Positions 2,057 through 13,593 of a DNA stretch of 39,703 bases are shown piece after piece. Source of the stretch: Candidatus Nealsoniibacteriota bacterium (GTDB lineage Bacteria > Patescibacteriota > Minisyncoccia > Minisyncoccales > GWA2-38-27); assembly GCA_030616085.1 (NCBI GenBank), contig JAUWYA010000005.1, positions 1 through 39,703 on the forward strand, written 5' to 3'. The translations under genes were made by a program, and so were the position numbers. Below the pieces are notes generated by a model. It saw only the letters and a program-made list of their open reading frames with translations, had not been told where the DNA came from and did no database searches. Positions within the stretch are counted from its first letter, which is position 1. Every line of letters starts with the position of its first letter.

Positions 2057-2158
2057 CGGTTATCCTTTCCAAGAAATCCGTTGACAATATAAACACCACA
2101 TAAAGTGTACGATAATTTAATTATACATTATTCCTTAGAAAAAGTCAAGCCCGAAAAC

Positions 2159-2182
2159 AAAAAACAGCTAAAAAGCTGCTTT
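2159..2182 (-). terminator. Putative terminator downstream of rpmG
   Basis: CAGC-TTTTTA-GCTG-TTTTTT on minus strand. Confidence 0.55.
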
Positions 2183-2193
2183 TATACCTTAAT

Positions 2194-2254
2194 AATCTCT
2201 TCAAACCTTATAATCGGTATACTAGGTTTTACGACCCTCTTTGTGTAAAGTGTG
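2194..2254. repeat. 61-bp direct repeat R2 (native rpmG 3' end)
   Basis: Matches 1391..1451 with one mismatch. Confidence 0.9.
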
Positions 2255-2389
2255 CTTTCTGCACCACTTGCAGAATTTTTTCAATTCTAATTTCTCCTCA
2301 ACCATCATCTTGGGTTTATTCGTAAAATAATTTATTCTTTTGCAAACGCTGCATTGAAGTTTTATAAATGGTTTTTTCTTTTTTGCCAT
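2222..2389 (-). CDS. rpmG: 50S ribosomal protein L33
   Basis: MAKKKKPFIKLQCSVCKRINYFTNKPKM...FCKWCRKHTLHKEGRKT; paired CxxC motifs; the longer ORF start overlaps tRNA-Thr. Confidence 0.85.
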   Translation of the reverse strand: MAKKKKPFIKLQCSVCKRINYFTNKPKMMVEEKLELKKFCKWCRKHTLHKEGRKT

Positions 2390-2412
2390 AATTTTATTTT
2401 CTTTATCTTTTG

Positions 2413-2484
2413 AGCCGGAGGGGAGAATTGAACTCCCGGCCTTTTTCTTACCAAGAAAACGTTCTGCCACTGAACTACTCCGGC
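2413..2484 (-). tRNA. tRNA-Thr(GGT)
   Basis: Cloverleaf GCCGGAG...CTCCGGC, anticodon loop TTGGTAA, T-loop TTCAATT. Confidence 0.95.
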
Positions 2485-2488
2485 AAAA

Positions 2489-3082
2489 CTAATTATAGAT
2501 TTTTTTAATTTCTCCTAAAATTTGCTCTTTTAGTTTTTTATTGGTAAATGATATTGTCAGAACCCCGTATTCGCTTTTCTTTCTATAAGTTCCCTTGCCC
2601 TGCGGTGGTATGATAGTTATTTTCCCGAGTTGTTTTCTCTTAATTTCAAGGTGCTTTTTCCAAAAACTTACTGCTTTTGATTCTTTAATGTCGTTAAATA
2701 AAATTAACCCGTAGCAAAATTTCTCTTCTTTAGCTCGATATATCTTTCTTAAAAATTCTCTAAATTTTTTAATTAAAAATGGATCTGTATTCCCTAAACG
2801 AACCGATGTATTATAGGGACTTTTGTCTCCTTCTCCCCAATAAATACCAAGTCCCAATGCTTTAAGTTCACTTTCTTTTCTACTAAGCTTTGTTTTTATT
2901 TTAAATGGATCACCATTAGGATTTCGTTTTATATAAGTAGCTTCGCTTCTAGATCTTCTCGGAATATTATAATTAATCATCCAGTAAGTAACCGGATGAT
3001 AATTCCATCCTGTTTTATCAGAAATTTCTTTCATTGATAAGCCACTTCTATATAATCTTTCTAATTTATTTTTAGGTAGCAT
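2489..3082 (-). CDS. HTH + LAGLIDADG-like putative homing endonuclease
   Basis: HTH-like N-terminus (LSMKEISDKTGWNYHPVTYWM) and LAGLIDADG-like motif LKALGLGIYWGEGDKSP...RLGNTDP; start taken at MLPKNK because the longer ORF runs through tRNA-Tyr. Confidence 0.7.
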   Translation of the reverse strand: MLPKNKLERLYRSGLSMKEISDKTGWNYHPVTYWMINYNIPRRSRSEATYIKRNPNGDPFKIKTKLSRKESELKALGLGIYWGEGDKSPYNTSVRLGNTDPFLIKKFREFLRKIYRAKEEKFCYGLILFNDIKESKAVSFWKKHLEIKRKQLGKITIIPPQGKGTYRKKSEYGVLTISFTNKKLKEQILGEIKKIYN

Positions 3083-3083
3083 G

Positions 3084-3165
3084 TGGGTGCGGCAGGAATT
3101 GCACCTGCGAAGCCCTAAGGCGCCTCTTTTACAGAGAGGTGGAATAGCTACTCTCCCACGCACCC
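3084..3165 (-). tRNA. tRNA-Tyr(GTA), class II
   Basis: GGGTGCG...CGCACCC acceptor, loop CTGTAAA, 14-nt variable arm, T-loop TGCAATT. Confidence 0.95.
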
Positions 3166-3198
3166 TTTAATTATTTAATCATTCTACCACAAAAATAG

Positions 3199-3852
3199 CT
3201 ATTTTTCAATGGTCTTAGAATGTTTTTTTCTCCATTCCTCTATTTTTTTATGATTTCCAGAGATTAAAACTTTTGGAACACGCCATTTGTTAAATATTTC
3301 TGGTCTTGTATATTGAGCGTATTCAATAAATCCTTTTTCTTTAGTTATTCTCTCTTTTAACAGTTCCTTTTTACCCAAAACTCCAGGAATTAATCTTGAT
3401 ACTGATTCAACAACTATCATAGCTGGCAATTCTCCGCCCATTAAATCATAATCCCCTATTGATAATTCAATATCAGCAATATTTTTAGCCACTCTTTCAT
3501 CAACTCCTTCGTATCTGCCGCAGATTAAAATGATCTGATCCAACTTGCTAAACTGATAAGCCATTTTCTGATTAAACTTCTTACCCCGAGGAGTAAACAA
3601 AACAACTTTAGTTTTTTTCTTCTTTTTTAAATCTTTCACAGCTTTAAAGATTGGCTCAATCTTCATTACCATGCCAAGTCCTCCGCCAAAGGGCTTATCA
3701 TCAACTGTCTTATGCTTACCAGAAGTCCAGTCTCTTAAATTATGAATATTGACTTTTATGAGCTTCTTTCTCTGCCCACGATTAATTAAACTCTCTGAGA
3801 AATAAGAATTGAAAATCTCTGGGAAAATTGTAATAATATCAAATTTAAGCAT
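3199..3852 (-). CDS. trmD: tRNA (guanine37-N1)-methyltransferase
   Basis: MLKFDIITIFPEIF..., DKPFGGGLGMVMK, ICGRYEGVDERV, SIGDYDLMGGELPAM. Confidence 0.97.
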   Translation of the reverse strand: MLKFDIITIFPEIFNSYFSESLINRGQRKKLIKVNIHNLRDWTSGKHKTVDDKPFGGGLGMVMKIEPIFKAVKDLKKKKKTKVVLFTPRGKKFNQKMAYQFSKLDQIILICGRYEGVDERVAKNIADIELSIGDYDLMGGELPAMIVVESVSRLIPGVLGKKELLKERITKEKGFIEYAQYTRPEIFNKWRVPKVLISGNHKKIEEWRKKHSKTIEK

Positions 3853-5374: not shown

Positions 5375-6070
5375 TTACCAATTTTTAACTTTTAAGCCCT
5401 TTTTTGCTGCGCCTTCCTCTGCTTCTTGCTTAGAAGAACCCTCTCCTTCTGCCACTAAATCTTTATCAAGAAAAACACCAATTACAAAGTGCTTAGCATG
5501 ATCTGGACCCCATTCTTTCAAAACCTTATAATTCGGTGTAGTTCCTACTCTTTCCTGGGCTTCTTCTTGAAAAACAGATTTAGCATCTCTGAAAAGACCT
5601 TCTTTAATAATATGAGGCAATTCTTTTATTAAGTGTTTTTCAATAAAGTTTTTGCAAGCCTTTAATCCCTGGTCAAGATATAGAGCGCCGATAAAGGCCT
5701 CATGAGTATTAGCTAAAATATATTGACGGGCTTTACCAGTTTCCTTTATCTCTCCCTGAGAAAGCAAAAGGAAATCATTCAAACCTAAATCTTGAGCAGT
5801 TTTCGCCAACATCTTAGCATTTACTAAAGATGCGCGCAAACTGGTTAAATCGCCTTCTGATTTCTTTGGATATTTTTGAAATAAATATTCCGTTACCACC
5901 TGCTCTAATATAGCATCTCCTAAAAATTCCAATCTTTCATTATTGGAAAGTTCAAGCTTAGGATTTTCATTTAAAAAAGACCGATGAACAAATGCCTGAG
6001 CAAGCAAGTCTTTATCTTTAAATTCTATATTTAATTGTTTCTCTAATTTTGAAAAATCTTTTGTAATCAT
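5375..6070 (-). CDS. rnc: Ribonuclease III
   Basis: [14 protein letters not shown] motif and C-terminal dsRBD. Confidence 0.97.
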
Positions 6071-6492
6071 TTTTCCTCAATTTCTTTATAAACAGTGCCG
6101 AGCACGCCATTAATAAATTTTCCAGAACTTTCTCCGCCAAATGACTTGGCTAATTCAATCGCTTCGTTTATTGCAACTTTTGGCGGAACTTCTTCTTTAT
6201 TTCCGTATAAAAGCTCATAAAGCCCAATTCTCAAAACATTCCTGTCAATAATGGTTATTTGGTCAATAGGCCATTCTGGAGCTGCTTTTTCAATAATTTT
6301 ATCAATATTAGAAATATTAGAAACAACTCCCTTGATAAGCTGCCAGACAAAATCTTTGTCTTGAAGCCCAGGACCAAATTCTTTGATGTTTTTTTCAACA
6401 ATCTTTTCTAAGATATCTGACTTTTTGCCAGAAAAGTCCCATTCATATAAACTTTGCATTGCTATTGAACGTGATAGATGTCTTGATGCCAT
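6067..6492 (-). CDS. nusB: Transcription antitermination factor NusB
   Basis: [20 protein letters not shown]...[25 protein letters not shown]. Confidence 0.95.
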
Positions 6493-7061: not shown

Positions 7062-7679
7062 TTAACTCACTTTAAAGCTCTTTCTATGAATTTTACAAAA
7101 ACCACATTGTTTTATTATTTGCCTATGAAGTTTAGTTGGATATCCTTTATGTCTGTCAAAAGCATACTTGGGATATTTCTTATGATATCTTAGCATCATT
7201 CTATCCCTGGTAACCTTAGCCACAATTGAAGCTGCAGCGCAAGAAGAAACTTTTTCATCTGCTTTTATTATTGATTTCTGAGAAACATCTAAATTTATGC
7301 TAAAATTCCCATCAATAAGAAGAAAATCAGCATTTGAACACTTTCTCTCTAAATTCCTTACCGCCCTCCTCATTGCCAACTTTGTTGCTTCAAGAATGTT
7401 AATTCTGTCAATAACCTTTTCTGAAGCTCGTCCTATCCCCCACTCTACGTTTGGATTTTCTTTCAATATTTCATAAATCTCTTCTCGTCTCTTTGGTGTA
7501 AGCTTTTTGGAATCTTTAATTAAAATGGAAGAGAACTGTCCTCTTCCATTCTTAAAACAAACTGCGGCAGCAACTACAGAAGCCGCTAATGGTCCTCTTC
7601 CAACCTCATCAATTCCCACAACTATTTTATATCCCTTTTTCCATAATCTCTTCTCTTCTCTAAAATTAGGGTATTTCAT
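7062..7679 (-). CDS. rnhB: Ribonuclease HII
   Basis: VVGIDEVGRGPLAASVVAAAV; ADEKVSSCAAASIVAKVTRDRMM. Confidence 0.96.
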   Translation of the reverse strand: MKYPNFREEKRLWKKGYKIVVGIDEVGRGPLAASVVAAAVCFKNGRGQFSSILIKDSKKLTPKRREEIYEILKENPNVEWGIGRASEKVIDRINILEATKLAMRRAVRNLERKCSNADFLLIDGNFSINLDVSQKSIIKADEKVSSCAAASIVAKVTRDRMMLRYHKKYPKYAFDRHKGYPTKLHRQIIKQCGFCKIHRKSFKVS

Positions 7680-7699: not shown

Positions 7700-7728
7700 T
7701 TGACAAATCCTCAACTCTATGCTAAATT
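7700..7728 (+). promoter_or_regulatory. Promoter 1 of the tandem locus
   Basis: TTGACA-17-TAAATT, followed by leader ACATCTATCGTA...AGAACCTTAA shared with promoters 2 and 3. Confidence 0.75.
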
Positions 7729-7783
7729 ACATCTATCGTAGAAATAGAACCTTAACAACATTTTAATTGGAAGGAAAACAAAG

Positions 7784-8689
7784 ATGAATAATCAAGAAGA
7801 AAAAAAGACAGAAAAAACAGATGAAACAAAAGATACAACAACAGAAGCAACATCCAAAGATAAAGCAGATGCGCTGGTAGAAAAAACGCTTGCTGAAGAA
7901 GAAGAAAGGAAAAGACAAACAAGATCTAAGATAAAAATAGCTCTTATAGCGATGGGACTATCTTTGCTTTCAATAGTCTGTCTCTATCTGATTGCTTACA
8001 ACAATGTGATAACCAACTTTAATGACATCGCTTGTATCATCCTTGGCAGCATCATTGGTGGCATCCTTGGTGGCATGATTGGTGTTATGATCTTTAATGC
8101 TGGCGCCGTTGGTAGCATCTTCTCTGGTGGCGTCATTGGTAGCGTCATTGGCGGCATCCTTGGTGGCACCAATGGTGCTATCACTGGTTTCATCATTGGT
8201 GGCATCTTTAGTGTCATCACCGATTGCATCATTCGGAATACTATGCATGACATCAAAAAAGAAATTCATCCTGAATTGATAGCTCTTCTAAGTATTGTTT
8301 TTCTCTTACCTTTTGTTACCATATTAGTTCCTCTTTCTAAGTATCACAACCAAAATCAGATAAAGAGAGATACAATAATCTCAGAAGCACACCTTCAAAT
8401 AAAAATTTTGGAAGATGAAATAGAAATTCTCTTGCCAAGCGAGTATGATTCAGATAATTCTTATTTGGAAAAGACTCTTTTTGTTAATTATAGTTGGGAT
8501 ATGGTTGAAGAAAAAGCATGGAAAGATATAGTAATTCCTTGCCGAGAAGGAAATAAATATTGGTATAAGATAAAATTACCATCCCCGGAAAAGAAAACTA
8601 ACACTGTTGATCTTTTTCTGGTCTTCAAGCATGTTTGGGAGAACTATGAAACAACCAAAAAAATCTCTTTTCCAGATCCAAATGAATAA
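7784..8689 (+). CDS. Glycine-zipper membrane protein, paralog 1
   Basis: Charged N-terminus, TM segment, Gly-rich GGILGGMIG...GGVIGSVIGGILGG region, TM, C-terminal domain shared with 8870..9718 (LSKYHNxNQ, LEDxIExLLP, WxDIVIPCREGxKYW, SFPDPNE); GGAAGG upstream. Confidence 0.85.
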   Translation: MNNQEEKKTEKTDETKDTTTEATSKDKADALVEKTLAEEEERKRQTRSKIKIALIAMGLSLLSIVCLYLIAYNNVITNFNDIACIILGSIIGGILGGMIGVMIFNAGAVGSIFSGGVIGSVIGGILGGTNGAITGFIIGGIFSVITDCIIRNTMHDIKKEIHPELIALLSIVFLLPFVTILVPLSKYHNQNQIKRDTIISEAHLQIKILEDEIEILLPSEYDSDNSYLEKTLFVNYSWDMVEEKAWKDIVIPCREGNKYWYKIKLPSPEKKTNTVDLFLVFKHVWENYETTKKISFPDPNE

Positions 8690-8700
8690 AAGAAAAGCAC

Positions 8701-8731
8701 AGCCCACGATATTCTCATCATGGGCTTTTTT
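8701..8731 (+). terminator. Rho-independent terminator (unit 1)
   Basis: AGCCCACGAT-ATTCTC-ATCATGGGCTTTTTT. Confidence 0.85.
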
Positions 8732-8746
8732 ATTTTGAGATGTAAA

Positions 8747-8775
8747 GTGCTGGCGGTATCGGATACCGCCAGCAC
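8747..8775. repeat. 29-bp palindrome (unit 1)
   Basis: GTGCTGGCGGTAT-CGG-ATACCGCCAGCAC. Confidence 0.9.
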
Positions 8776-8782
8776 CAAAAAC

Positions 8783-8810
8783 TTGACATTTAAAATGAAC
8801 ATGCTAAATT
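8783..8810 (+). promoter_or_regulatory. Promoter 2 of the tandem locus
   Basis: TTGACA-16-TAAATT and shared leader. Confidence 0.75.
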
Positions 8811-8869
8811 ACATTTATCGTAATCGTAAAAACAGAACCTTAAAATCTTAATCGGAAAGGAAAACAAAA

Positions 8870-9718
8870 ATGACAGAAAAAGAAGAAAAAACCAAACCAG
8901 AAGAAAAAAACAAAACAAAGGACACAAAAGAAACAACACATGAAGATGCTATGATAGAAGAAGCGCTTACTAAAGAAGAACCTAAAACAGAACAATCGAA
9001 TAAAGTTCTTCTTAAAGTAGCTATAAAAGAAAAAGGAATAAAAACTGAAACAAAAACCGCTCTGGGAGCAGTAATATTGCTATTGTTTTCACTGCTCTTT
9101 TTATGGATATCTGGCACTCGTAACGATTTAACAGAAAATTTTTCCTTTATTGGCTTTATCGTGGTTAATACTCTTGTCGGTGGTCTATCTTCTCTTCTAA
9201 TAGCTCGCTTTGCGGCCTGGGATAAAAATCAAAGAAGTTTTCTTTTAACTCCCCTGACCATTCTATGGTGTATTTTTTTACTACCTCCTCTTATTGGGAT
9301 AACCCCTCTTTCTAAATATCACAATTATAACCAACTGGAAAGAGATAAAAAGATCGTAGAGGTATTAGAGATAACGGTCTTAGAAGACTACATAGAGGTT
9401 CTCTTACCAAATGAACATGCTTCAGAAAGTTCTTACTTGAAAAAAGTTTTTTCTCTTGGTTTGACGAACGACACAAAAGAAATGTGGGAAGATATAGTAA
9501 TCCCATGCCGAGAAGGAGATAAATACTGGCACAAGGTAAAATTACCACTCCCGAACTGGTATAAATTGAAACTGGCTGGACGTCCGGTATCTTGGACACC
9601 AACACAAGAAAAGGATAAATATAAGAACAACACTGATAATATTTTCTTATTTTTTGATCATGCCTTTAAGGATTATGAAACAACCAAAGAAATTATTTTT
9701 CCAGATCCAAATGAATAA
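8870..9718 (+). CDS. Membrane protein, paralog 2 (no glycine zipper)
   Basis: Same C-terminal domain and N-terminal charged/TM architecture as 7784..8689; GGAAAGG upstream. Confidence 0.85.
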   Translation: MTEKEEKTKPEEKNKTKDTKETTHEDAMIEEALTKEEPKTEQSNKVLLKVAIKEKGIKTETKTALGAVILLLFSLLFLWISGTRNDLTENFSFIGFIVVNTLVGGLSSLLIARFAAWDKNQRSFLLTPLTILWCIFLLPPLIGITPLSKYHNYNQLERDKKIVEVLEITVLEDYIEVLLPNEHASESSYLKKVFSLGLTNDTKEMWEDIVIPCREGDKYWHKVKLPLPNWYKLKLAGRPVSWTPTQEKDKYKNNTDNIFLFFDHAFKDYETTKEIIFPDPNE

Positions 9719-9729
9719 AAGAAAAGCAC

Positions 9730-9760
9730 AGCCCACGATATTCTCATCGTGGGCTTTTTT
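9730..9760 (+). terminator. Rho-independent terminator (unit 2)
   Basis: AGCCCACGAT-ATTCTC-ATCGTGGGCTTTTTT. Confidence 0.87.
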
Positions 9761-9775
9761 ATTTTGAGATGTAAA

Positions 9776-9804
9776 GTGCTGGCGGTATCCGATACCGCCA
9801 GCAC
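9776..9804. repeat. 29-bp palindrome (unit 2)
   Basis: GTGCTGGCGGTAT-CCG-ATACCGCCAGCAC; exact reverse complement of the unit 1 palindrome. Confidence 0.9.
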
Positions 9805-9811
9805 CAAAAAC

Positions 9812-9839
9812 TTGACATTTAAAATGAACGTGCTAAACT
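9812..9839 (+). promoter_or_regulatory. Promoter 3 of the tandem locus
   Basis: TTGACA-16-TAAACT and shared leader. Confidence 0.75.
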
Positions 9840-9900
9840 ACATCTATCGTACGTAAAAACAGAACCTTAAAATTTTAATTAAATCAGAAGGGAGAAAGAA

Positions 9901-10269
9901 ATGACAAAAAAGAAAACTAAAGCAGTTCTTGAAAAAGAAAACAAAAATTTATCGAAGCAAAACCAAAAACTGGAGGAAACAGAAGAAAAGCTAAGAACAA
10001 CTCTTGCTGATCTTACTAGTAAAAATCAGGCCTTAACAAACTGTTACGAAGCATTGAAATCAAACAGAGGAGTACTCCAGAGAGATCGAGATCATCTTTT
10101 CACTCAAAAAGAAGAACTAAAACAAAATAATAGAACTCAACAAGAGGAAATAATAGCGCTGGCGAGAGAAGTACAAAACAAAGACAGCCAACTGGAAAAA
10201 AAAGTCGAAAGGGAAGAAACACTTATAGAAACCGTATCCAATCTTGCCTGTCACTTAGGACGACCATAA
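9901..10269 (+). CDS. Coiled-coil protein, 122 aa
   Basis: ORF with GAAGGGAG upstream; E/K/Q/L heptad-rich sequence; terminator follows. Confidence 0.8.
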   Translation: MTKKKTKAVLEKENKNLSKQNQKLEETEEKLRTTLADLTSKNQALTNCYEALKSNRGVLQRDRDHLFTQKEELKQNNRTQQEEIIALAREVQNKDSQLEKKVEREETLIETVSNLACHLGRP

Positions 10270-10300
10270 CAGGAAAAAACAAACATCCAAAAAAAATCTT

Positions 10301-10328
10301 GCCCTGTAGTTTAACTATAGGGCTTTTT
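10301..10328 (+). terminator. Rho-independent terminator
   Basis: GCCCTGTAG-TTTAA-CTATAGGGC-TTTTT. Confidence 0.8.
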
Positions 10329-10378
10329 ACTTGCATCATAATTTCTAACAAGGTAAAATAATATAATTATGAAGTTCA

Positions 10379-10409
10379 CCCTCACTACCAAATAAATTTG
10401 GTGTGAGGG
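10379..10409 (+). promoter_or_regulatory. Hairpin overlapping the likely dnaE ribosome binding site
   Basis: CCCTCACTACCAAA-TAAA-TTTGGTGTGAGGG (one bulge), 3' arm carries GAGGG upstream of ATG 10420. Confidence 0.6.
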
Positions 10410-10419
10410 CAAGCCCATT

Positions 10420-13400
10420 ATGCCAAAATTCACACATCTTCACGTCCATAGTCATTACTCCTTGCTTGACGGTCTGCCCAAGATTGATCAACTCTTAGAT
10501 CGGGTTAAAGAATTAGGAATGGATTCTGTTGCTTTGACTGACCATGGAGTTTTGTATGGAGCAGTAGAATTCTATAAAAAAGCAAAGCAAAGAGGAATCA
10601 AGCCGATTATTGGCTGCGAGGTCTATACTGCTTTTGAAAGAATGAACCAGAAAAGACCAAATGTAGATGATAAAAGATACCATCTGATCCTGCTGGCCAA
10701 AAACGAAGAAGGTTATAAAAACTTAGTTCAACTTGTTACTAAAGCCCACTTAGAGGGCTTTTATTATAAGCCAAGGGTAGATGACAAGCTCTTAGCAAAA
10801 CATTCAAAAGGCCTGATTGCTCTAAGCGGCTGTCTGGCTGGAAGAATCCCGCGATTAATCCAGTCAAAGAACTTTGAACAAGCTGAAATGTTAGCACAAA
10901 AATATCAGGATATCTTTGGCAAAGATAATTTTTATTTAGAAATACAACATCATCCAAAGATTCCACAACAAGAAACTACTAATAATCAACTAATTAATAT
11001 TTCCGAGAAATACGGTATTCCTTTGGTAGCAACTAACGATACTCATTATCTAAAACCAGAAGATGCTGAAGCCCAAGACATTCTAATGTTAATTAACACT
11101 GGCGCTAATCCTAATGACCCGGAACGGATAACTATTAAATCAGATGATTTCTCCTTGAGAAGCTCTGAAGAAATGGAACAAGTGTTTAAACGTGTTCCAG
11201 AAGCCATTGAAAATACTCAGAAAATTACACAGGCATGTAATTTTGAACTTAAGCTTGGAGAAACAAAACTGCCTTGTTTTGAAGTGCCTAATGGTAAAAC
11301 CCCTGACGAATATCTTGAAGAACTCTGCAAACAAGGATTAAAAAGACGCTTTAAAGATAACCTGAATAAAGAAATTACAGATAGATTAAATTATGAGATT
11401 TCTATTATTAAACAAACCGGTTTTGCATCCTACTTTTTAATTGTTCAGGACTTTGTTAACTGGGCTAAACAGCAAAGAATTGTTGTTGGTCCAGGAAGAG
11501 GCTCAGCGCCAGGTTCTTTAGTTTCCTATTTATTAAACATCACTAATGTTGACCCTATTAAAAACAATCTTTTGTTTGAAAGATTCTTAAATCCTGAAAG
11601 AATATCAATGCCTGATATTGATCTTGATTTTACTGACAGAAGAAGGGATGAAGTTATAAACTACGTTGCTCAAAAATACGGAAAAGACAAGGTTGCTCAA
11701 ATAATTACTTTTGGAACAATGGCTGCCAGGGCTGTAATTAGAGATGTTGGCCGCGCTTTAGGCTATGCTTATCCTTATTGCGACCAGATTGCAAAAATGA
11801 TTCCTCTTGGCTTCAACTTAGATGAAACCTTAAAAAAAATTGATGAATTCAAAAACATTTATCAAACTGACGAACAAGCTGAAAGATTAATTAATTTAGC
11901 GAAAAAACTGGAAGGAGTAGCCCGCCACGCTTCAACTCATGCTTGCGGAGTAGTAATATCTGATCAGCCGCTTTCTGATTTAATACCTCTCCAGCGTCCT
12001 ACGCAAAACGAGGAAAGCGTTGTTACCCAATACGAAATGCATTCAATTGAAGATTTAGGACTTTTAAAAATGGATCTTCTAGGCCTGAAGAACCTAACTA
12101 TTATAGAAGATACCTTGTCACGAATATATGTTCTTAGGAACGGACTTAAAGTGGATATTGACAACATTCCTTTAGATAACAAAGAAGTATTTAAAACTTT
12201 GCAAAAAGGCAATACAAAAGCTATATTTCAACTGGAAGGCGATAGCATGACAAGATATCTAAAACAATTAAAGCCCACTGAATTTGAAGACATCGTAGCT
12301 ATGGTTGCTCTTCATAGACCAGGCCCTATGCAATTCATCCCTGACTATATTGCCAGAAAACATAAAAAGCAAAGAATAGAATACCTGCATCCAAAACTAA
12401 AACCAATATTAGAAAAAACCCAGGGTATTTGCATATATCAGGAACAATTAATGCAAATTGCCAAAGATTTAGCCGGATTCAGTTTAGCTGAAGCTGATGT
12501 TTTAAGAAAGGCTGTTGGGAAAAAAATCATTAAGCTTCTTCATCAACAGGAAGAAAAATTCATCAAAGGAGTGATTAATAATGGAATTGACAAGAAGATT
12601 GCTATAAAATTATGGCAATGGATTCTTCCTTTTGCCCAATATGGCTTTAACCGCAGTCACTCTGCATCTTATGCAACAATTGCTTATCAGACAGCTTATT
12701 TAAAAACTCTTTATCCAGTTGAATTTATGGCTGCTGCTTTAACTTCTGAAAAAACAGATGTTGAAAGAATTGCTGCTTTAATTGACGAATGCAAGAAAAT
12801 GAAAATTGAAGTTTTGCCTCCAGATATTAATGAAAGCTTAAAAAACTTTACAGTAGTGTCTGAAGAGAGTAAGATAAGATTTGGGCTCCTGGCTATTAAA
12901 AATGTTGGTGAAAATATAATTGATGTAATTGTTGAAGAAGTAAAAAATAATGGCAGTTTTAAAAGTGTTGAAGATTTTGTTGAAAGGATTAATTCTAAAG
13001 ATTTAAATAGAAAGTCGTTAGAGAGTTTGATTAAAGCCGGCGCCCTTGATGAATTTGCCGAGAGGAACAAATTGTTGCATAATTTAGAAAGATTGCTAGA
13101 ATGGTCAAAAGAGACGCAAAAAAGCAGAATGAGCGGCCAAAAAGGTCTTTTTGATGGAGACAGCTTTAGCAATGATATAAAGTTGGAGCAAGCTGTTCCA
13201 GCTACAAACTTTGAAAAATTAAGCTGGGAAAAAGAACTCTTAGGCCTTTACGTTACATCTCATCCATTAGAAGATTTCAGAGAAATTTTAGAGAAAAAAA
13301 CCTTATCTCTTGTTAATATTGAAGATGGCTTGAAAAATACCAGTGTTAGGGTCGGAGGCATTATATCTGGAATTAAAAAAATCATTACCAGAAATGGAAA

Positions 13401-13593
13401 GCCAATGCTTTTTGTAAAATTAGAAGATTTAACTGATAAAGCCGAGGTTGTTGTTTTCCCAGGAGTCATTGAAAGAAATCCTACTGTTTTCCAGGAAAAT
13501 AAAATTGTCTTTATCACAGGAAGAATTGATAATAGAGATAATATACCAAAAGTAATAGCAAATGAAGTTGAAGAAATAATATATGAAACTTGA
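10420..13593 (+). CDS. dnaE: DNA polymerase III subunit alpha
   Basis: PHP domain HLHVHSHYSLLDG; VGPGRGSAPGSLVSY; PDIDLDFTDRRRDEVINYV; C-terminal OB fold. Confidence 0.98.
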   Translation: MPKFTHLHVHSHYSLLDGLPKIDQLLDRVKELGMDSVALTDHGVLYGAVEFYKKAKQRGIKPIIGCEVYTAFERMNQKRPNVDDKRYHLILLAKNEEGYKNLVQLVTKAHLEGFYYKPRVDDKLLAKHSKGLIALSGCLAGRIPRLIQSKNFEQAEMLAQKYQDIFGKDNFYLEIQHHPKIPQQETTNNQLINISEKYGIPLVATNDTHYLKPEDAEAQDILMLINTGANPNDPERITIKSDDFSLRSSEEMEQVFKRVPEAIENTQKITQACNFELKLGETKLPCFEVPNGKTPDEYLEELCKQGLKRRFKDNLNKEITDRLNYEISIIKQTGFASYFLIVQDFVNWAKQQRIVVGPGRGSAPGSLVSYLLNITNVDPIKNNLLFERFLNPERISMPDIDLDFTDRRRDEVINYVAQKYGKDKVAQIITFGTMAARAVIRDVGRALGYAYPYCDQIAKMIPLGFNLDETLKKIDEFKNIYQTDEQAERLINLAKKLEGVARHASTHACGVVISDQPLSDLIPLQRPTQNEESVVTQYEMHSIEDLGLLKMDLLGLKNLTIIEDTLSRIYVLRNGLKVDIDNIPLDNKEVFKTLQKGNTKAIFQLEGDSMTRYLKQLKPTEFEDIVAMVALHRPGPMQFIPDYIARKHKKQRIEYLHPKLKPILEKTQGICIYQEQLMQIAKDLAGFSLAEADVLRKAVGKKIIKLLHQQEEKFIKGVINNGIDKKIAIKLWQWILPFAQYGFNRSHSASYATIAYQTAYLKTLYPVEFMAAALTSEKTDVERIAALIDECKKMKIEVLPPDINESLKNFTVVSEESKIRFGLLAIKNVGENIIDVIVEEVKNNGSFKSVEDFVERINSKDLNRKSLESLIKAGALDEFAERNKLLHNLERLLEWSKETQKSRMSGQKGLFDGDSFSNDIKLEQAVPATNFEKLSWEKELLGLYVTSHPLEDFREILEKKTLSLVNIEDGLKNTSVRVGGIISGIKKIITRNGKPMLFVKLEDLTDKAEVVVFPGVIERNPTVFQENKIVFITGRIDNRDNIPKVIANEVEEIIYET

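Follow-up and report, generated by a model that had tools for sequence, protein, structure and literature searches.

Between rnhB and dnaE, the window (the whole 39,703-nt stretch of DNA analyzed here, one of the contigs of a 740-kb, 98%-complete genome that is probably patescibacterial (CPR), judging by its size and its relatives) carries three ORFs on the plus strand, encoding proteins of 301, 282 and 122 aa. They are arranged as three monocistronic units spanning positions 7700-10323, each made up of a promoter, a common leader, a Shine-Dalgarno sequence, a gene and a terminator (Table 1), and each gene is most likely transcribed alone. This layout confirms from the sequence the preliminary description of three genes, each with its own TTGACA-N16/17 promoter and a common leader. 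The spacers between the -35 and -10 hexamers are 17, 16 and 16 nt long in promoters 1, 2 and 3, and all three promoters carry TG one base 5' of the -10 hexamer (TGC-TAAATT or TGC-TAAACT) and are, therefore, of the extended -10 type. The only Rfam family detected in the window was tRNA. At the right border, the start of dnaE (10369-10434) has been changed in comparison with the sister species: ATGAAGTTCACC is followed by a hairpin insert (CCCTCACTACCAAATAAATTTGGTGTGAGGG) and then a re-created start ATGCCAAAATTCACA. The half of the genome that was read yielded no other clear copy of this hairpin.

Table 1. Features of the rnhB-dnaE interval and its surroundings (positions in the window).
Feature	Position	Strand	Basis	Remark
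nusB	6067..6492	-	Pfam PF01029, E 1.3e-35	candidate boxA reader
rnhB (RNase HII)	7062..7679	-	Pfam PF01351	left border of variable slot
Promoter 1, TTGACA-N17-TAAATT, extended -10 TGC	7700..7728	+	sequence	
boxA-like element AGAACCTTAACAA, unit 1 leader	7746..7758	+	score 13.1, rRNA-leader matrix from relatives	
Gene 1, 301 aa	7784..8689	+		paralogue of gene 2
Intrinsic terminator of gene 1 (AGCCCACGATATTCTCATCATGGGCTTTTTTATTTT)	8701..8735	+		one mismatch in stem; perfect counterpart at 9730
Dispersed palindrome, copy 1 (GTGCTGGCGGTATCGGATACCGCCAGCAC)	8747..8775	no strand	repeat search	
Promoter 2, TTGACA-N16-TAAATT, extended -10	8783..8810	+	sequence	
boxA-like element AGAACCTTAAAAT, unit 2 leader	8834..8846	+	score 11.4, same rRNA-leader matrix	
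Gene 2, 282 aa	8870..9718	+		paralogue of gene 1
Intrinsic terminator of gene 2	9730..9764	+	sequence	perfect stem
Dispersed palindrome, copy 2	9776..9804	no strand	repeat search	
Promoter 3, TTGACA-N16-TAAACT, extended -10	9812..9839	+	sequence	
Leader 3 stretch, 28 nt identical to sister-species slot leader	9852..9879	+	sequence comparison	
boxA-like element AGAACCTTAAAAT, unit 3 leader	9861..9873	+	score 11.4, rRNA-leader matrix	
Gene 3, 122 aa, coiled coil	9901..10269	+	ORF translation	coiled-coil background matches alone
Intrinsic terminator of gene 3	10301..10330	+	sequence	
dnaE	10420..13593	+	Pfam PF07733, PF02811	right border of variable slot

Proteins 1 and 2 are paralogous, with 30% of positions identical across the full alignment and 58% within the C-terminal 138 aa, and both follow the same plan of a charged N-terminal tail, membrane spans and a C-terminal domain of ~110-135 aa. 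In protein 1, the tail is followed by a span, a glycine-zipper repeat region (encoded by 12-nt repeats), a last span and the C-terminal domain. Protein 2 has three membrane spans (60-85, 91-112 and 123-149), and from the positive charges at its N-terminal side and in the loop 113-122 the C-terminal domain is predicted to lie outside; both proteins would sit in the membrane with this domain outside the cell. Gene 3 is unrelated to genes 1 and 2 and has nothing in common with them beyond the leader and a few A-rich codons at its start. Matches of the locus proteins in Pfam, NCBIfam, PHROGs and PDB amounted to low-complexity, glycine-rich or coiled-coil background, which bears out the earlier observation that the C-terminal domain is unrecognised, with no confident family match in the databases searched. 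Our best guess, held with low confidence, is that proteins 1 and 2 form a lineage-specific surface or envelope pair.

The preliminary description went further and proposed that a dedicated regulon serves an envelope, defence or stress system not described before, a view for which the combination of membrane paralogues and a coiled-coil protein under similar promoters, along with the orphan C-terminal domain, could be taken to speak. Several observations stand against it. Relatives of proteins 1 and 2 were sought in the order (247 genomes), in viral contigs, phages and plasmids and in two genome-contig scans, and none was found, which argues that there is no conserved three-gene system; two sub-threshold matches within the order (E 0.003) cover short stretches only, and the genome search for gene 3 had its own genome as scope. 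The PADLOC defence search gave no credible match, only one weak partial match (E 0.003) in addition to coiled-coil background, and the leader core is a general element (see below), not specific to the window genes. A dedicated system of this kind is, thus, unsupported, and we regard it as very unlikely.

A comparison with related genomes places the locus in a variable slot. In some ten genomes of the order, rnhB lies next to dnaE at a distance of no more than ~60 nt, and the slot is occupied by different genes in this genome (G000), in its sister species of the same genus (G001) and in G006, G007 and G015. A ~119-aa gene beside rnhB is common to G001, G006 and G007 and absent from this genome. 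The slot gene of G001 encodes a protein of 148-154 aa with a Biotin_lipoyl domain (PF00364), unrelated to the window genes; it is preceded by a leader with 28 consecutive nt identical to leader 3 and followed by a terminator resembling those of units 1 and 2, so that the setting has been kept and the gene differs. On these comparative grounds, we take the locus to be an accessory insertion, specific to its lineage, in the variable slot that separates the divergent core genes rnhB and dnaE, in agreement with its initial designation as accessory. The sister species, in which another gene stands between the conserved leader and a similar terminator, offers a clear example of cargo being exchanged at one fixed site. 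In G007, dnaE itself (L106) has an apparent intein-like insertion in the PHP region (CLPPGHLIYTSKGMKPIEKIQVGDLVLTHRG).

The history of the units can be read from their uneven divergence. The sequence TGCTAAAYTACATYTATCGTA is present in three copies in the window (vs. 0.01 expected from shuffles), and its core occurs three times genome-wide and not once in the reversed control. When unit 1 is aligned to unit 2, the block 8646-8825 is 93-98% identical (per 60-nt segment) to 9675-9852, as opposed to only 30-68% in most coding segments, which makes the block younger than the gene duplication. The near-identity of the terminator-palindrome-promoter block claimed at the outset (8672-8860 vs. 9701-9880) is correct in its coordinates. 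Promoter 1 and leader 1 are more diverged (69-79%) and have no upstream palindrome. Hence, of the "independent identical promoters" described initially, the separate promoter for each gene stands, but only promoters 2 and 3 are near-identical, promoter 1 being older and diverged. The terminator-palindrome-promoter block appears to have been copied recently, by conversion or segmental copying; its near-identity is best read in this way and not, as had been suggested, as a sign of co-regulation. Two steps would account for the growth of the locus: an old gene duplication that gave rise to the two membrane proteins, and a later, recent copying of the ~180-nt terminator-palindrome-promoter-leader block. 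Another account, which puts everything down to a single recent tandem duplication of promoter and gene and sees no regulatory meaning, would agree with the identity of the intergenic blocks; it is at odds with coding parts far more diverged than the block, with the older age of leader 1, and with the presence of the leader before unrelated genes, namely an orphan gene at C10:48067 (and its G001 orthologue) and the gene in the G001 slot. As the sole cause of the shared leader, tandem duplication fails, and we consider it the least probable of the explanations weighed here.

The palindrome GTGCTGGCGGTATCSGATACCGCCAGCAC within the copied block is a dispersed repeat. The 385 kb read, approximately half of the genome, contains 20 copies when up to 4 mismatches are allowed, and 17 of these are exact; the copies are mostly intergenic and sometimes paired. 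An IS200-type Y1 transposase gene (PF01797, E 6.4e-9; L074:411-1169, equal to C1:40411-41169) has palindrome copies at L074:386, at 593 (within the gene) and at 1179 (region C1:40386-41197), and this region belongs to an 8.5-kb palindrome cluster. REP and TIR elements go with IS200-like tyrosine transposases, RAYT and TIRYT, respectively, and classical REPs carry a GTAG tag (PMC3733652). Short, multi-copy, mostly intergenic and located around and inside a Y1_Tnp gene, the palindrome resembles these elements and is classified, from its sequence features, as REP- or TIR-like; it differs from the REP/RAYT pairs in that the GTAG tag is absent from its ends, and its relationship with the transposase is putative.

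The common leader core, AGAACCTTNAAAA, is where the locus connects with ribosomal RNA operons. The 16S leaders of eleven relatives carry the pattern of AGAACCTTNAAAA between the promoter and 16S, among others as AGAACCTTGAAAA (G009, G015), AGCACTTTGAAAA (G016), AGTACTTTGAAAA (G002), AGTTCTTTGAAAA (G017), TGAACATTGAAAA (G004) and AGAACGTTGACAA (G006). The 16S gene is absent from the assemblies of this genome and of G001, and boxA was read in the leaders of the relatives instead. The gammaproteobacterial boxA consensus is GYTCTTTAANA (PMC5725501), and by both sequence and position the rRNA-leader element of the relatives is a predicted boxA. Against a matrix of the eleven relatives' rRNA leaders, the window elements score 13.1, 11.4 and 11.4, whereas 0.5% of random 75-nt stretches reach 11. 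They are located 17-23 nt downstream of the -10 hexamer, within the region predicted to be transcribed, and ~20-26 nt before the Shine-Dalgarno sequence. NusB is encoded 1.2 kb from the locus, a proximity that may be due to chance. Pairing between boxA and the Shine-Dalgarno sequence (CCTT with AAGG) was considered and rejected, as it comprises only 4 bp and is no better than in shuffles. In two contigs of G007 (C16 and C59; L163 and L165), a GC-rich hairpin is located just 5' of AGAACCTTGAAAA, an arrangement resembling the boxB-boxA order, and two such leaders precede radical-SAM-like genes.

Beyond the locus, a sequence model derived from five leaders gave strong matches at C10:48066-48067 and in the orthologous leader of G001 (C8:12501), in both cases before a 415/417-aa orphan membrane protein, and weaker matches in an orthologous pair before csrA in the same two genomes. 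The csrA leader is conserved with AACATTAACAA, which is boxA-like and has no G (G000 C26:5735, L153; G001 C1:13349, L159). A search for the leader, envisaged genome-wide as a way to define a dedicated regulon and made here by motif searches and in stretches covering about half of the genome, shows its core instead to be a general element, present in rRNA leaders and before varied genes. We quantified this by scanning the 75 nt after each extended -10 promoter of the form TTGAC[AT]-N-TGNTANNNT with a matrix of eleven rRNA elements, none of them from this genome or G001; the promoter sets so obtained are small, come from a simple pattern and include some promoters with no convincing gene downstream. 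A score of 9 was reached by 6 of 16 leaders in G000 with the window left out (0.32 expected, P about 2e-7 to 3.9e-7), by 6 of 41 in G001, whose set includes orthologues of G000 leaders (0.72 expected, P 7.8e-5), and by 4 of 18 in G006, from a third genus (0.46 expected, P 0.001; at threshold 8, 5 of 18 vs. 0.73 expected, P 6e-4). None of the eight promoters of G009, from a fourth genus, had a boxA-like leader. Upstream controls yielded 0 or 1 match and reversed controls were near zero. Since the test was devised after the motif had been seen in G000, G001 and G006 represent the cleaner replicates.

Such an enrichment might alternatively mean that the shared leader is simply the common strong-promoter and 5' UTR context of the lineage, its likeness to boxA being coincidental or stemming from initiation constraints shared with rRNA promoters. 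The motif is short and AT-rich, folding of the leader RNAs gave no significant structure, and weak matches to the leader model occur in 38 of 60 genomes, all of which is compatible with such an origin. The enrichment, however, holds against dinucleotide shuffles of the leaders as well as upstream and reversed sequence; in several relatives the element is found ~100 nt from the rRNA promoter, away from initiation; and the mRNA elements, which replace the CTTT of the classical core by CCTT or CATT, vary in the same way as the rRNA ones. We rate this alternative as rather unlikely.

In G018, a member of another family, rnhB is followed by three consecutive small orphan genes (L114, reverse strand, ~2110-3588); their promoters are near-identical, and each of their leaders carries a boxA-like AGTTCTTTGACAT, so that the same architecture recurs with another leader. 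The boxA-like element of these leaders can pair with a downstream TCAAAGAA.

Overall, we consider it probable that the locus is an accessory insertion of three self-contained promoter-boxA leader-gene-terminator units read by NusB/S10. The units, the slot, the copied block, the correspondence of the leader core to the boxA-like elements in relatives' rRNA leaders, and the association of the leader with a different gene in G001 come directly from the sequences; the reading by Nus factors would proceed as follows. The nascent leader would expose boxA, NusB and S10 (NusE) would bind it, and the Nus complex would then travel with RNA polymerase, which, being tied to Nus factors, would couple expression to ribosome supply. 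Alternatively, the bound leader may modify translation at the nearby Shine-Dalgarno sequence; the effect on expression could be repression or support.

Action of boxA in mRNA leaders through Nus factors has been demonstrated in other bacteria; in E. coli suhB, a boxA in the mRNA leader together with the Nus complex lowers translation (PMC5725501). With the boxA of rRNA operons, the binding site of NusB-NusE/S10, the window elements have in common a 13-nt pattern equal to the 16S-leader elements of relatives, a predicted location downstream of the promoter and a NusB encoded nearby; they differ in lying in short mRNA leaders, often with a CCTT or CATT core, and as binding sites they are putative. 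As in suhB and other gammaproteobacterial mRNAs, the boxA-like element is within ~50 nt of the start codon and 5' of the Shine-Dalgarno sequence (PMC5725501). With a strict consensus, between 0 and 7 sites were found in each gammaproteobacterial genome, and Nus factors repress the cases that were tested (PMC5725501); the window element, by comparison, belongs to very small genomes, where it recurs ahead of lineage-specific genes in one constant promoter-leader setting. A broader proposition is that, in a family of bacteria with very small genomes, strong promoters of lineage-specific single-gene units generally include an rRNA-type boxA mRNA leader as a portable part, and that Nus factors tie these units to ribosome supply; it is offered tentatively, as a possibility that falls short of probable.

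To our knowledge, little is known about gene regulation in these reduced bacteria. BoxA has been regarded as a signal of rRNA, with few targets among the mRNAs of any one genome, and a literature search, with incomplete full-text coverage, found no paper linking boxA to mRNAs of the candidate phyla radiation. The point of interest of the locus is a reusable expression module, as distinct from a proven new defence or stress system. If boxA is indeed standard in mRNA leaders of these organisms, this would imply a different link among transcription, ribosomes and the expression of newly gained genes, which would be plugged into a fixed promoter-boxA-terminator setting.
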